Positions 47,336 to 59,519 of a stretch of DNA of 64,000 bases are shown here, piece after piece. Location: the NCBI RefSeq assembly GCF_036227405.1, contig NZ_CP109473.1:1612001-1676000 (forward strand), given 5' to 3'. Below the pieces are notes generated by a model. The model had not been told where the DNA came from. It did no database searches and saw only the letters and a list, made by a program, of their open reading frames with translations. Position 1 is the stretch's first letter. Every line of letters begins with the position of its first letter. This stretch comes from Streptomyces sp. NBC_01460. Lineage in GTDB: Bacteria > Actinomycetota > Actinomycetes > Streptomycetales > Streptomycetaceae. The position numbers and the translations under genes were made by a program.

Positions 47336-48565
47336 CTAGAGAGCGACGCCCAGCAGGGCGTCGACGGTGCGCGAGACGAGGCCGGGCGCGCCCTCGTCCG
47401 TGCCGCCGCCCGCGCTCTGCCGCTCGGCCCAGCGGTCCACGGCGGCGAGTGCGGCCGGGGCGTCCAGGTCGTCGGCCAGGGCCTCCCGGACCTCCTCGAC
47501 CAGGGCATCGGCGGAGATCCCGTCGGGCCGGGAGACGGCCGCACGCCAGCGGGCGAGACGCTCGACGGCGTCGGCGAGGACCTGGTCGGTCCACTCCCAG
47601 TCGGCCCGGTAGTGGTGCGCGAGCAGGGCGAGCCTGATCGCGGCGGGGTCCACGTCGTCCCGGCGGAGCGCCGACACGAAGACGAGGTTGCCCTTGGATT
47701 TGGACATCTTCTCGCCGTTGAGGGCGACCATGCCCGCGTGCACGTAGGCGCGGGCGAACGGGTGCTCGCCGGTCAGCACCTGGGCGTGCGAGGCGCCCAT
47801 CTCGTGGTGCGGGAAGGCGAGGTCGGAGCCGCCCCCCTGGACGTCGAAGGTCATGCCCAGGTGGTCCAGCGCGATGGCGACGCACTCGATGTGCCAGCCG
47901 GGGCGGCCACGGCCGAGCGTTCCGCCGTCCCAGCTCGGCTCGCCCTGACGGGCGGCCATCCAGAGCATCGGGTCGAGGGGGTTCTTCTTGCCGGGGCGCT
48001 CCGGGTCCCCGCCGCGCTCGGCGGAGAGCACGCGCATGGCCTCGGCGTCGAGGCCCGAGACCTCTCCGAAGTGCGGGTCGCACTCCACGGAGAAGTACAC
48101 GTCGCCGTCGAGTTCGTAGGCGGCACCCGCGTCGCGGAGGCGCTCCACCAGCGGGACGATGCCGGGTATCGCCTCCACCGCCCCGATGTAGTGCTTCGGG
48201 GGAAGCATGCGCAGGGCGGTCATGTCCTCCCTGAAGAGTGCCGTCTCGCGCTCCGCGAGCTCGGTCCAGTCCTCGCCGTCGCGCACGGCCCGCTCCAGCA
48301 GCGGATCATCCACGTCGGTCACGTTCTGGACGTAGTGAACCTGCCGCTTGGTGTCGAGCCACACGCGCTGAACGAGGTCGAACGCGTTGTAGGTCGCCGC
48401 ATGACCCATGTGGGTCGCGTCGTACGGCGTGATGCCGCAGACGTAGATGCGGGCGACGGGACCGGGGTCAAGGGTGATCCGTCCGCCGGTCGCGGTGTCG
48501 TGGATCCGAAGGTCGCGGCCCTTGCCAGGAAGGGCGGGGACCTCAGAAGCGGGCCAGGCATGCAT
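47336..48565 (-). CDS. mshC: Mycothiol cysteine ligase MshC
   Basis: A 409-residue class I aminoacyl-tRNA-synthetase-like ligase that joins cysteine to GlcN-Ins in mycothiol biosynthesis, the main thiol buffer of actinobacteria. [18 protein letters not shown] holds the zinc Cys and the HIGH-like HMGH motif. [10 protein letters not shown] and [12 protein letters not shown] supply further zinc ligands. [15 protein letters not shown] is the KMSKS motif. It lacks the tRNA-binding C-terminal part of CysRS and its length fits MshC. Several in-frame ATGs lie at the start; 48565 is the likely one. It ends 20 bases from the terminator at 47274. Confidence 0.95.
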
Positions 48566-54309: not shown

Positions 54310-55293
54310 ATGGAGCAGAGGCATCTCGGCCGTACCGGCCTTCGTGTGTCCCGGATCGGGCTGGGCACCCTCACCTGGGGCCGGGACACGGACGAGCACG
54401 ACGCCGCCGACCAGCTCAAAGTCTTCTGGGACGCGGGCGGCACCCTCGTCGACACCGCCGACGTCTACGGCGGCGGCGAGGCCGAACACCTGCTGGGGCG
54501 CCTCCTGGACAGCCTGGTCCCGCGACAGGATCTGGTCATCGCGACCAAGGCGGGCAGCGTCCCGGATCCGTACCGCCGCTCCGACGGATCGCGCGGGCAC
54601 CTGCTCGCGGCGCTCGACGCCTCCCTGCGACGGCTCGGGACGGACTACGTCGATCTGTGGCAGATCCACGCGTTCGACCCCGTGACACCGCTGGACGAGA
54701 CCCTGCAGGCGCTCGACCTGGCCGTGTCCTCGGGGCGCGTGCGGTATGCCGGGGTGTCCAACTTCAGCGGCTGGCAGCTGGCCAAGGCGGCCACCTGGCA
54801 GCTCGCCGCGCCCGGGCAGCGCACCCGCCTCGCCTGCACGCAGATGGAGTACTCGCTGCTGCAGCGCGGCGTCGAGCGGGAGGTGCTGCCGGCGGCGCGG
54901 GACCTGGGAGTGGGACTGCTGCCCTCGTCCCCGCTGGGCAGAGGCGTGCTGACCGGGAAGTACCGGACCGGCACCCCCTCGGGCTCGCGTGGCGCCTCCG
55001 AGCAGCTGGCCCCCTTCGTCGAGCCGTACCTCGACGACGCGGCGAGCAGGATCGTGGACGCGGTGGCCACCGCTGCCGACGGCCTCGCCACGACCCCCCT
55101 CCAGGTCGCGCTCGCCTGGGTGCGGGACCGGCCCGGAGTGGTGGCCCCGGTCGTCGGCGCGCGCAACGCGCGGCAGCTGACCGAGGCGTTGTCGGTGGAG
55201 GCGCTTAGTCTTCCTGACGAGATCTGCCAGGCGCTCGACGACGTGTCGGCGCCCGTGCACCGCTATCCCGACCAGGACTGGAGCACGCTGTGA
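54310..55293 (+). CDS. Aldo/keto reductase
   Basis: A 327-residue NADPH-dependent (alpha/beta)8 barrel reductase. Catalytic tetrad positions are visible: Asp in VDTADVYGGGEAE with the Tyr four residues on, Lys in LVIATKAGS and His in DLWQIHAFDP. VVAPVVGARNARQL is the cofactor phosphate loop. The ATG lacks a ribosome site, and TAATCT ends 8 bases before it, so the message is probably leaderless. Its stop overlaps the GTG of the RecD-like gene by four bases (GTGA), coupling the two. The substrate is unknown; the pairing with a DNA-helicase-like protein is unexplained. Confidence 0.92.
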   Translation: MEQRHLGRTGLRVSRIGLGTLTWGRDTDEHDAADQLKVFWDAGGTLVDTADVYGGGEAEHLLGRLLDSLVPRQDLVIATKAGSVPDPYRRSDGSRGHLLAALDASLRRLGTDYVDLWQIHAFDPVTPLDETLQALDLAVSSGRVRYAGVSNFSGWQLAKAATWQLAAPGQRTRLACTQMEYSLLQRGVEREVLPAARDLGVGLLPSSPLGRGVLTGKYRTGTPSGSRGASEQLAPFVEPYLDDAASRIVDAVATAADGLATTPLQVALAWVRDRPGVVAPVVGARNARQLTEALSVEALSLPDEICQALDDVSAPVHRYPDQDWSTL

Positions 55294-57545
55294 CTGCGCA
55301 TCCCCGGGGGGAGACCCCGGACCCCGCCGCCGAGGACCACGAGGCCGGCGAGGACGCCGGTGTCCAGGCCGCCGACCCGCCCGCCACTCCCGACGAGGGC
55401 GGCGCGGAGGGAGCGGACGACGGTGGGGAGAGCGAAGAGGGCGCGGAGAACGCCGAGAGCCCGGAGAGCCCGGAGAGCGCCGAGAGCGCACAGGGAGCGG
55501 AGGAGGCACCCGCGGCGCCCGCGCTGTCGGAGGCCGAGGCGGAGCTGGCCGCTCAGCGCGAGCTGCGCCTGCGGATCGAGCAGCGCAAGGCCGAGAAGGC
55601 CGGCCCCATCGCCGCCGGCACGAAGCTGAGCGGTCCGGCCGCGGATCTGCTCGCGGCCGTGCGCGCGGTCGAGAGCGGTGAGACGCCGGGCACCGACTTC
55701 TTCGACTCACCGGCGTCGGCGCCCGCGCCGCGCCGCACGGCACCCGCCCCGCCCGCCCGTCCTTCCCCCGCCGCCGGCACGCCGGCCGCGCGGGCCGCGT
55801 CCCCCGAGGCCGCGGCCTCGGTCGCGGCGGTGCTCGCCGAGGGCGGGGCTCCCGAGGCCCTGGCGCGCCCGGCGACGGCGACGCTGGGCGAGGGGGCCGC
55901 CGGTCTCCTGCGCGAGGACCCGTGGCAGTTGCTGTCCCTGCCCGGTGTCCGGCCGGAGCAGGCGGACGGCTTCGCGCGGGCGCTGCTGGGCGCCGAGTGC
56001 GGACCCGACGACGAACGGCGCGCGGCCGCACTGGTGGGCTGGCTGCTGGAGCGGGCCGCGCTGCGGGGGCACACCGCGCTCGACGCCGACGAGACGCGGA
56101 AGGCGCTGGAGGGATTCGCGGTCACCGATCCCGAGGAGGCCGTCCAGCACGCGGTCGCCGAGGGCGTCGTCCTGGTCTTCCAGGACGGTGTGGACGCCAC
56201 GGGGGCCCAGGAGCCGGACGAGGCCGGCGAGGACACCGGTGAGGACGGGACGCCGGCCGACGAGGAGCCTGTACGGGTCCTGCTCGGCCTCGACCGGTAC
56301 GCCCTCGCGGAGGAGAGCCTCGCCGACGGCCTGGGCCGGCTGGTCAACTCGTGCGACAAGGGCGCCGACTGGTCGGAGTCCGCTGCCGCCGCCCCGTCCC
56401 CCTCGGCGGGCGAGTTGATCCGCGCCGCGGCCACCGCGGGCCTGGTCGCCCACAGCGGGGGCGAGAGCGCCCGCGCGGAGCCCGCCGCCCTGATCGCCGC
56501 CGCGCACGGCCTCGGCCTGCGGGCCATGGGCACCACGCACAGCACCGACGGACAGCGCAGGCTCGCCGAAGCGGTCGGTGACGCCCGGTCGGCCGTCACG
56601 CTCTCCGCCCTGCTCTCCGGCGAGGACGGTCCCGGCCGGGACGCGGACGGCGCGTTCGCCCTCGACCTGCTGGTCGTGCTGGACGCCCCGCAGCTCGATG
56701 TGGAGACGGCCGCGATGCTGGTGGAGTCGCTCGCCGACGGGACGCGGCTGGTCCTGAGCGGCGATCCGGGGGTCCTCGGGTCCGCCGGTGCGGGCCGGGT
56801 GTTCGCCGACGTGATCGCGGCGCGTGCCTGCCCGCACGTCGTCTCGCGCACGCCCGACCCCGGGCCGATCGGCGAGCTGGTCTCCGGTATCGGCATCGGC
56901 GAGCTCGCCCAGGTCGAGGCGCCCGGCAAGGAGGTCGTGATCGTGCCCGTCCGCGACGCGGGCGAGGCCGTCCACCGCACGGTGCAGCTGGTGGCCGACT
57001 CGGTGCCGCGCGCCATCGGCGTACCCTCCTCCGACACCCAGGTGATCACCGTCGGACACGGCGGATCGGCGGGCACCACCGCGCTGAACGCGGCGCTCAA
57101 GCAGCGGCTCAATCCGGGGCCGGGCCGTTTCGGCGGGTTCGACCCGGGCGACCGGGTGGTCCACATCCCCGCACCCGGCAGGGCCGTACCCGGTTCGGTC
57201 GTCTCGGCGGACGCCGAGGGTCTGCACCTGGACTGCTCCGGCACTCCCGTCGTCGTGGCGCCGGACCAGGTGGAGGCCTCCGTGCGCCACAGCTGGGCGC
57301 TCAGCGCCCACCAGGCGGCCGGGATGCGCTGGCCCGCCGTCGTGGTCGTCCTGCCGGGAGACGCCGCTCAGGGGCTCAGCAGGCCCTGGGTCTACACGGC
57401 GTTCAGCCGCGGGGAGCGGCATCTGTCCGTGGTGCACGGGGTGGACCAGGCTCTGCCCCGCGCGGTGGCCGAGGTCCCGGCGCAGGAGCGGACCACCCGG
57501 CTGCGCCCCCTGCTGGAGGCGCTTCCCGGACCGGACGCCTCGTAG
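55290..57545 (+). CDS. RecD-like helix-hairpin-helix protein with degenerate ATPase motifs
   Basis: A 751-residue protein. Residues 1-95 are acidic and low-complexity (GAENAESPESPESAESAQGA). A helix-hairpin-helix-like segment lies near 205-240 (LREDPWQLLSLPGVRPEQAD), as in RecD2. The rest follows the RecD2 layout but with key residues lost. Where Walker A should be (about 365-385) there is PSPSAGELIRAAATAGLVAH with no GKT. Walker B reads LLVVLDAPQLD in place of the usual DEAS. The downstream TRLVLSGDPGVLGSAGAG and the C-terminal VYTAFSRGERHLSVVHG still resemble RecD motifs III and VI. It is therefore probably a non-hydrolysing DNA-binding relative. GTG 55290 overlaps the preceding stop. A strong hairpin follows. 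Confidence 0.75.
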   Translation: MTAHPRGETPDPAAEDHEAGEDAGVQAADPPATPDEGGAEGADDGGESEEGAENAESPESPESAESAQGAEEAPAAPALSEAEAELAAQRELRLRIEQRKAEKAGPIAAGTKLSGPAADLLAAVRAVESGETPGTDFFDSPASAPAPRRTAPAPPARPSPAAGTPAARAASPEAAASVAAVLAEGGAPEALARPATATLGEGAAGLLREDPWQLLSLPGVRPEQADGFARALLGAECGPDDERRAAALVGWLLERAALRGHTALDADETRKALEGFAVTDPEEAVQHAVAEGVVLVFQDGVDATGAQEPDEAGEDTGEDGTPADEEPVRVLLGLDRYALAEESLADGLGRLVNSCDKGADWSESAAAAPSPSAGELIRAAATAGLVAHSGGESARAEPAALIAAAHGLGLRAMGTTHSTDGQRRLAEAVGDARSAVTLSALLSGEDGPGRDADGAFALDLLVVLDAPQLDVETAAMLVESLADGTRLVLSGDPGVLGSAGAGRVFADVIAARACPHVVSRTPDPGPIGELVSGIGIGELAQVEAPGKEVVIVPVRDAGEAVHRTVQLVADSVPRAIGVPSSDTQVITVGHGGSAGTTALNAALKQRLNPGPGRFGGFDPGDRVVHIPAPGRAVPGSVVSADAEGLHLDCSGTPVVVAPDQVEASVRHSWALSAHQAAGMRWPAVVVVLPGDAAQGLSRPWVYTAFSRGERHLSVVHGVDQALPRAVAEVPAQERTTRLRPLLEALPGPDAS

Positions 57546-57648: not shown

Positions 57649-58311
57649 TCAGGGGCGTTCCGGGACGACTGCGGGCGGCTCCCCGTCGAGCTCGTCCTCC
57701 TCGTCGAAGACCGCGCTGACGTCGAAGCGGCAGACCACCAGTGCGGGGTCGGCCTCGTCGAACGGCGCTCCGAGCCACTCCCCCGGCTCGGGAAGCTCGT
57801 CCACGGCGGAGACCCAGAGGGTGGAGTCCCCCTCCTCCAGCCCGAACTCCTTGTGCCGGGAGGCGATCTCGTCCGCCTCGTACTCTCCGAACACCACACC
57901 CAGTGCGGCATGGACGCCCGCGTCGGCGACGGCCGGTACGCCGGCGTCCCGGCCGTCCGGATCCAGCTCGGCGAGCCGCTGCGCCTGGGCGATCAGCCGC
58001 GCGGGCTCCGCCACCGCGTAGTCGCGCCTGATCAGCACGCTGACGGCGTGCGGCTCCTCCGGGCCCGCGTAGGGCGGGAGGGAGTCCTCGGCTCCGGGGA
58101 TCTCGAAAGGGGTGACCTCGTCGTAGCGGTCGTAGAGCAGTTCGTCGTAGACCTCGGCCGCGGCGGCCAGTGCGTTGAACGCGTCGTAGACAGTGGGGTC
58201 GTCGTCCCCGGTACGGCGTTCGACCGCCTGGAGGTGACGGTCGAGCGCGGTTTTGACTGCATCGGCGGCGGCGCGTACCTCGGCAGCGGTGGGCTGCGCA
58301 GCATCAGACAT
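57649..58311 (-). CDS. Conserved hypothetical cytoplasmic protein
   Basis: A 220-residue acidic protein that I cannot assign. The N-terminal third is helical (AEVRAAADAVKTALDRHLQA and NALAAAAEVYDELLYDRYDE). The centre has a beta-type AVSVLIRRDYAVAEPARLIA segment, and the C-terminus is very acidic (FDEEDELDGEPPAVV). There is no signal, membrane segment or catalytic motif. ATG 58311 lacks a ribosome site, and TAGCGT ends 7 bases before it, so translation may be leaderless. It is divergent from the DUF5703 gene with only 47 bases between, and converges on the RecD-like gene terminator. Confidence 0.78.
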   Translation of the reverse strand: MSDAAQPTAAEVRAAADAVKTALDRHLQAVERRTGDDDPTVYDAFNALAAAAEVYDELLYDRYDEVTPFEIPGAEDSLPPYAGPEEPHAVSVLIRRDYAVAEPARLIAQAQRLAELDPDGRDAGVPAVADAGVHAALGVVFGEYEADEIASRHKEFGLEEGDSTLWVSAVDELPEPGEWLGAPFDEADPALVVCRFDVSAVFDEEDELDGEPPAVVPERP

Positions 58312-58604: not shown

Positions 58605-59381
58605 CTACGCGGCGCTGCGCGAACGCCGGTACAGGACCGTGCCCGCACCTGCGAGCAGCAGGCCCGCGCTCGCCGGGACGAGCAGGTCGAGCCCGCCCCC
58701 ACCGGTGTGGGCGAGCTGCTCGGTCACGAGCTGGGTCTCGGGAGCCGGGGGCGCGTCCGGGGTGACCGGCCGCTCCGGGGTGTGCGGCGTCTCCGGCACG
58801 ACGGGAGGCGGGGCCGTCTCCGACTCGTTCTCGCAGGAGTTGCCGAAGACCGGGTTGAGCAGGCCGCCGACGGTGACGCTGTTGCCGCAGAGGTTCAGCG
58901 CGATCTCCACCGGCACCTGCACCTGGTTGCCGGAGAGGATGCCGGGGGAACCGGTGGTCTCGGCCTGCGCCGAGGTGCCGGAGGCCCGGTGCCTGCCCGT
59001 CCCCGCCCCGCTGTCGTGCCCGGACGCCTCGCCGTCGCGTGCGCGGTCGTGCCCGCGTCCGTGCCCGGACGCCTCGCTGCCGGAACCGTGACCGGACGAG
59101 GAACCGCCGTCCGGGGCGTACGCGTGACCGGAGTCCGAAGATCCGTTTCCGCAGTCGTTCCCGGCCGCGGGGTTGAGCAGACCGACGACGTCCACGGAGT
59201 TTCCGCACACGTTGACGGGTACGTCGATCGGGACCTGGATCGAGTTCCCCGAGACCACGCCCGGTGAACCCGACGCGGCGCCGGCCGCACCCGCGTCGGC
59301 GTGCGCGTAACCGCCACCGAGCGCCAGCACTCCGCCCGCCGCTGCCATCGTGATCAGGCCTTTACGTGTGACCTGTCGCAT
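58605..59381 (-). CDS. chpC: Long chaplin, sortase-anchored hydrophobic surface protein (ChpC-like)
   Basis: A 258-residue secreted protein of the aerial-hypha coat. A signal peptide (RKGLITMAAAGGVLALGGGY, cleaved near AHA-DA) leads to two chaplin domains. The first has VNVCGNSVDVVGLLNPAAGN and the second LNLCGNSVTVGGLLNPVFGN, each with a Cys pair. Between them is a ~60-residue Ser/Gly/His/Asp-rich linker with repeated SGHGS-type units. A Pro/Thr-rich wall-spanning segment leads to LAHTG, a membrane helix and RRSRSAA, a sortase signal of the LAXTG class. Its pairing with a short chaplin gene matches chpC-chpH of S. coelicolor. ATG 59381 follows AGGAAG. Confidence 0.93.
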   Translation of the reverse strand: MRQVTRKGLITMAAAGGVLALGGGYAHADAGAAGAASGSPGVVSGNSIQVPIDVPVNVCGNSVDVVGLLNPAAGNDCGNGSSDSGHAYAPDGGSSSGHGSGSEASGHGRGHDRARDGEASGHDSGAGTGRHRASGTSAQAETTGSPGILSGNQVQVPVEIALNLCGNSVTVGGLLNPVFGNSCENESETAPPPVVPETPHTPERPVTPDAPPAPETQLVTEQLAHTGGGGLDLLVPASAGLLLAGAGTVLYRRSRSAA

Positions 59382-59450
59382 AGGTTGTCTTCCTGCCTTC
59401 TGCCTACCGAAATGCCCCGGACACAGCAGTGAAGGGGCCGAATGCCCAGT

Positions 59451-59483
59451 GGCCCCGGAGTGCATGGCGCGCACTCCGGGGCC
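59451..59483. terminator. Hairpin terminator between short and long chaplin genes
   Basis: A perfect 13-bp stem (59451-59463 with 59471-59483) and 7-base loop. It should end most chpH transcripts, so the long chaplin gene needs its own promoter in the 70 bases before its start. Confidence 0.8.
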
Positions 59484-59519
59484 GACCGGGCTCACACCCT
59501 TACGGGTTGGTGCTCAACG

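Follow-up and report, generated by a model that had tools for sequence, protein, structure and literature searches.

The window, by which we mean the whole stretch of 64,000 nucleotides of Streptomyces sp. NBC_01460 that was analysed, contains two overlapping genes on its plus strand. The first (54310..55293) specifies an aldo/keto reductase of 327 residues [PF00248, E 1.1e-66]; its start was set at the ATG at 54310 because orthologues align from that point. The second (55290..57545) begins with GTG and encodes a RecD2-like protein of 751 residues without Walker A and Walker B, a putative pseudohelicase. The reductase stop and this GTG share the sequence GTGA, in agreement with the reading frame and the four-base overlap reported in a first-pass annotation of this DNA. 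The larger protein comprises an acidic, low-complexity N-terminal tail (residues 1–80, 55290..55529), an HHH_RecD2 domain [PF14490] (residues 176–262, 55815..56075) and domain 2A/2B (residues 545–745, 56922..57524), all on the plus strand.

RecD2 was the common answer of Pfam, NCBIfam, a PDB profile search and fold comparison, which bears out the full-length relationship to RecD2 proposed earlier. The match to PF14490 (E 1.5e-9) is above its cut-off, and that to TIGR01448 [RecD2 helicase] is below it (112 bits vs. 500), as it is for the three motif-intact relatives tested (396–422 bits). The predicted structure has the RecD2 fold, the HHH and 1A parts being those predicted with confidence; residues 1–75 have a pLDDT below 50, 2A is of low confidence in the full-length model, and 2A/2B folded in isolation reached a mean pLDDT of 46. 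The same genome also encodes a canonical RecD2 (L124, C1:2993000–2999500; 840 bits) in which all motifs are present. In another genome of the genus (G018) the canonical RecD2 match (L103, C1:3277071–3279258) falls in two pieces, and the pseudohelicase match of that genome is in one.

Alignment to RecD2 places the P-loop of the window protein at residues 389–395 (56454..56474) and Walker B at residues 464–465 (56679..56684), and both are destroyed. Where active relatives possess GGPGxGKS the protein has SGGESAR; GxxGxGK[ST] was not found at this site, the loop is shortened, and its lysine and serine/threonine are gone. No Walker B DE was found in the protein either, the aligned residues being LD. 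The loss of both Walker motifs noticed in the first-pass annotation is thereby confirmed, though not at the residues named there: it had put Walker A at PSPSAGELIRAAATAG (residues 369–384, 56394..56441), a segment which precedes the true site, and had read the Walker B change as DE to DA. A GKT displaced to another place in the chain was looked for and rejected, since none was found in the window protein, and the claim of loss stands.

The remaining motifs are altered to varying extents. Motif III (GDPGVL, residues 491–496, 56760..56777) keeps the GD of the GDxxQL of active relatives, and its glutamine is replaced by valine. The motif Ia consensus is absent from the Streptomyces protein, and motif V (SWALSAHQAAGMRWPAVV, residues 668–685, 57291..57344) is a degenerate replacement of HRAQGSEW. 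Motif VI (YTAFSRGERH, residues 702–711, 57393..57422) retains its arginine, R707, and R520 might be the arginine of motif IV, an assignment which varies with the alignment. The protein thus differs from RecD2, an SF1B helicase known from Deinococcus radiodurans [3e1s, 3gp8, 3gpl], in Walker A and B, the motif Ia consensus, the motif III glutamine and motif V. With Walker A and B gone and motifs Ia and V replaced, translocation by the Streptomyces protein would have no evident basis.

This decay is shared throughout the genus. The loci compared were the best 80 of 442 relatives, all from Streptomyces save one '[Kitasatospora] papulosa', and a P-loop at the Walker A site is missing from every one of them; the single regular-expression hit (L058) sits in its N-terminal tail. 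Intact orthologues beside which this copy alone was mutated, a possibility raised with the first-pass annotation, were therefore not encountered among these 80, and their agreement led us to reject sequencing error. The P-loop was also absent from the aligned part of all 30 loci taken from an order-wide sample, loci which include the window copy and partly overlap the 80 (L197 has an isolated GKT close to its N-terminus). At E ≤ 1e-30 a relative is present in 112 of the 119 genomes of this sample: 103/104 of the same genus (its own included), 1/1 of f39 and 8/14 of f40, with no match at this threshold in the other 6/14 f40 genomes (here and below, f-codes are the family labels of our samples, f1 including Streptomyces).

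Selection was estimated as the median dN/dS (Nei-Gojobori) of the 55 pairs formed among the window copy and ten of those 80 loci, all Streptomyces; because dS may be saturated in this high-GC DNA, only the contrast within the protein was used. The four stretches tested within residues 81–745 gave medians of 0.09–0.23, consistent with purifying selection. Constraint is strongest in 2A/2B (0.092), where it matches that on the reductase (0.107), followed by 1A (0.198) and HHH (0.226), and the tail is near-neutral (0.88). As the match extends to residue 733–751 of 751 in all of the best 80 of 442 loci and dN/dS is low, a pseudogene was rejected: the window gene is not one. Decay conserved across Streptomyces under purifying selection supports the earlier suggestion of a pseudo-helicase retained for a non-catalytic role.

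Beyond Streptomyces, the window protein is part of a second RecD2 lineage of actinomycetes with a fixed chromosomal place, here named RecD2-B, for which 48 rows were assembled for a tree from a class sample and follow-up fetches. In all 18 rows of f7, f10, f12, f14, f16, f18 and f21 the Walker A KS, DE, motif III glutamine and motif IV arginine are intact, unlike in the window protein; the motif V glutamine and motif VI arginine are present in 16 of them, the other two (L173, L175) ending before motifs V–VI. The 30 rows of f1, f2, f6, f8, f17, f20, f28, f31, f38, f39 and f40 have neither DE (0/30) nor a G4xGK[ST] P-loop (0/30). All 23 lost rows outside f1 are without DE or a full P-loop, and four of these, from f40 (L217–L220), have a lysine and threonine that align to Walker A, with the full preceding glycine loop and DE missing; they are possibly intermediates of the decay. 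Among the 30 lost rows the D of DE persists in 8, the E in 4, the motif III glutamine in 5 and the motif VI arginine in 14. Since the decay is this uneven, calling these members "dead" is an interpretation of their sequences, most secure for Streptomyces. Two rows were left out of the tree, L174 (an f17 genome), a second canonical-type RecD2 of 722 bits whose reductase is only 32% identical, and L300 (f22), which ends before the Walker region. Relatives on plasmids were rejected as orthologues; the 22 records are distant RecD-like helicases with at most 42% query coverage.

In a protein tree rooted with canonical RecD2 and with the motif columns removed, the 30 lost rows group in a single clade (100/99) that excludes the intact rows, and motif-intact RecD2-B is the nearest group. 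A single change of state suffices on this tree, with which a smaller, earlier set of rows was concordant; the f40 rows with lysine and threonine adjoin the Streptomyces branch. In the reductase tree the intact rows fall together, L173 excepted, and two changes of state are needed, one owed to this long-branched row. From the letters that persist, the motifs appear to have been lost stepwise, some letters more than once or after the founding change. Because long branches and shared decay could attract lines, and letters went at different times, we claim one clade and not one event per motif.

The reductase possesses D48, Y53, K80 and H120, which we take to be the catalytic tetrad of aldo/keto reductases. 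These columns are nearly all retained across 35 aligned rows (D 33, Y 35, K 34, H 33), and the product is therefore probably an active enzyme. Its kin in the PDB are DepB [8hwn], Kv-beta and YghZ. Within the best 80 of 442 relatives, all 74 Streptomyces loci holding both genes show the GTGA overlap (73 by script, and by eye L078, where four N interrupt the frame). Among lost rows outside f1 identified through their own similarity, the reductase is at the locus in 17/18, the exception (G037) lying near a contig end. It also accompanies intact members in f14 (6/6) and in f12, f7, f10 and f16 (1/1 each), and is absent in f18 (0/7) and f21 (0/1, at a contig end). The genes are separated by 1.1–1.8 kb in f7, f16 and two of the six f14 loci, and by about 3 kb in two f17 loci.

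With a threshold of E ≤ 1e-60, the reductase goes unmatched in six of the seven f18 genomes (L163–L169), and the match in the seventh has 44% identity; 103/118 genomes of the class sample have a match, a few only 44–50% identical. Starting from the reductase, we found a RecD2-B match at 6 of 60 fetched loci and none at the other 54, counting the locus only; in at least five of the 54 (L251, L260, L284, L295, L298) no more than 1.4 kb of sequence follows the reductase stop. Because the mini or cut members of f2, f6, f20, f22 and f38 came from inspection of the DNA that follows the reductase, they are no evidence for linkage. Constant linkage to the reductase, as the first-pass annotation envisaged it, thus holds for Streptomyces and for most dead relatives outside it, and fails class-wide, in f18 and at most reductase loci. 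The pairing is older than the motif loss, and the partnership is not obligatory. Being already present in motif-intact members, the linkage does not explain the loss.

Where the contig was long enough, 15 loci displayed a recurring neighbourhood consisting, besides the reductase and RecD2-B, of an LLM oxidoreductase and of what we presume to be an MshC-like cysteine ligase, a histidine phosphatase and an M20 peptidase (names assigned by eye; LLM and reductase by domain scan). Motif-intact RecD2-B lies, like the window gene, near the ligase and phosphatase and, outside the reductase-free f18, shares with the window locus the reductase and often the oxidoreductase and peptidase. Since the same neighbours recur across families, the loci look like positional orthologues. 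Upstream in the window, 47336–48565 specifies a cysteine ligase, presumably MshC-like, and several other families have a comparable ORF in the corresponding region (by eye).

Based upon these data the window gene is very probably a pseudohelicase, the Streptomyces member of RecD2-B with a decayed ATPase site and a non-catalytic role. Key parts for the use of ATP were lost and yet the gene was kept, mostly beside the reductase, which makes a structural job probable rather than DNA unwinding. The ATPase site of RecD2-B would have decayed while selection held the protein, most tightly in 2A/2B, and the conserved remainder suggests binding, presumably as a scaffold acting through its winged-helix/HHH and 2A/2B surfaces.

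Inactivated helicase domains are used for binding in RecC and AddB. These resemble the window protein in having a helicase-like domain without activity and differ from it in being subunits of RecBCD and AddAB; no gene for such a subunit was recognised by eye beside the pseudohelicase. D. radiodurans PriA is reported to have neither ATPase nor unwinding activity while still binding DNA and contacting DnaB [PMC4504706]. It too is a bacterial helicase which lost its ATPase and kept a role, although it belongs to another helicase family, and its DNA binding and partner were tested at the bench. These three precedents show that helicases can take on a different role in this way. Two Streptomyces with RecD but without RecBC have been described, their RecD falling with RecD2 in the tree, and the consulted portion of that report makes no mention of a degenerate RecD copy [PMC1193525]. 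Among the literature matches listed, no paper concerned the pseudohelicase or its pair with the reductase, as judged by title or start of abstract.

In Streptomyces the partner might be the reductase, which would be co-produced from one message through translational coupling; it is the first candidate, though a tentative one. More speculatively still, this RecD2 paralogue turned scaffold could bind the co-translated reductase and so link a redox or carbonyl state which the enzyme senses to an adaptor that associates with DNA or binds protein; the shrunken forms (a winged helix plus stripped RecA-like cores) would then represent the minimal binding unit.

One alternative, which we consider possible without favouring it, is that the pseudohelicase retained DNA binding and serves to load another factor during repair or the restart of forks, as is reported for D. 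radiodurans PriA with its DNA binding and DnaB interaction in the absence of ATPase and unwinding [PMC4504706]. Retention of the HHH_RecD2 domain agrees with this, but in f1 that domain is more acidic (net charge −7.5 per 100 residues) than in the intact families (−4.7 to 0.0), f17 however being at +0.4. Furthermore, the motif Ia consensus APTGRAAKRL is missing in every lost row aligning there (seven rows show no letters, and three f17 rows retain APT), and no repair gene was recognised beside the pseudohelicase, by eye and with three neighbours domain-scanned.

It is rather improbable that the protein is a slowly decaying remnant heading for loss and held by operon structure or chance. Shrinkage would fit: intact members have about 580–880 residues and some dead members about 310–380, this being the space after the reductase stop in dead forms of f2, f20, f28, f31 and f38 (about 430 in f6). 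By eye, the short dead forms begin close to the GHT piece ending the HHH region, and the SH3-like 2B seems to be absent from part of f40. The longer branches of dead members, the uneven loss of motif letters, and the reductase loci and f40 genomes without a relative point the same way. Against it are the virtually universal presence in the genus, matches running to the C-terminus in all 80 Streptomyces loci (best 80 of 442), and a dN/dS of 2A/2B as low as that of the reductase. An ATPase persisting through non-canonical residues, for which one might cite the motif VI arginine and motif III GD of the window protein and the aligned lysine and threonine of four f40 relatives, is most improbable in a protein with a shortened loop and without the lysine, serine/threonine and DE pair.

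For the non-catalytic pseudohelicase, our preferred reading, the lineage would be an SF1 helicase branch whose motor was lost in successive steps, which retained its gene and chromosomal place and which, in some lines, shed half of its length; as a natural deletion series it could show which helicase parts work without ATP. The label "RecD-like helicase" at this Streptomyces locus should not imply helicase activity.

Two minus-strand genes follow the pair. That at 57649–58311 specifies a small conserved protein (MSDAAQPTAAEVRAAADAVK...) for which neither Pfam nor NCBIfam gave a match at E ≤ 1, and similar ORFs lie beside the pair in L119, L178 and L180 (by eye). The product of 58605–59495 is a secreted protein, presumably Chaplin-like, and similar small secreted proteins are seen by eye beside the pair in L119.
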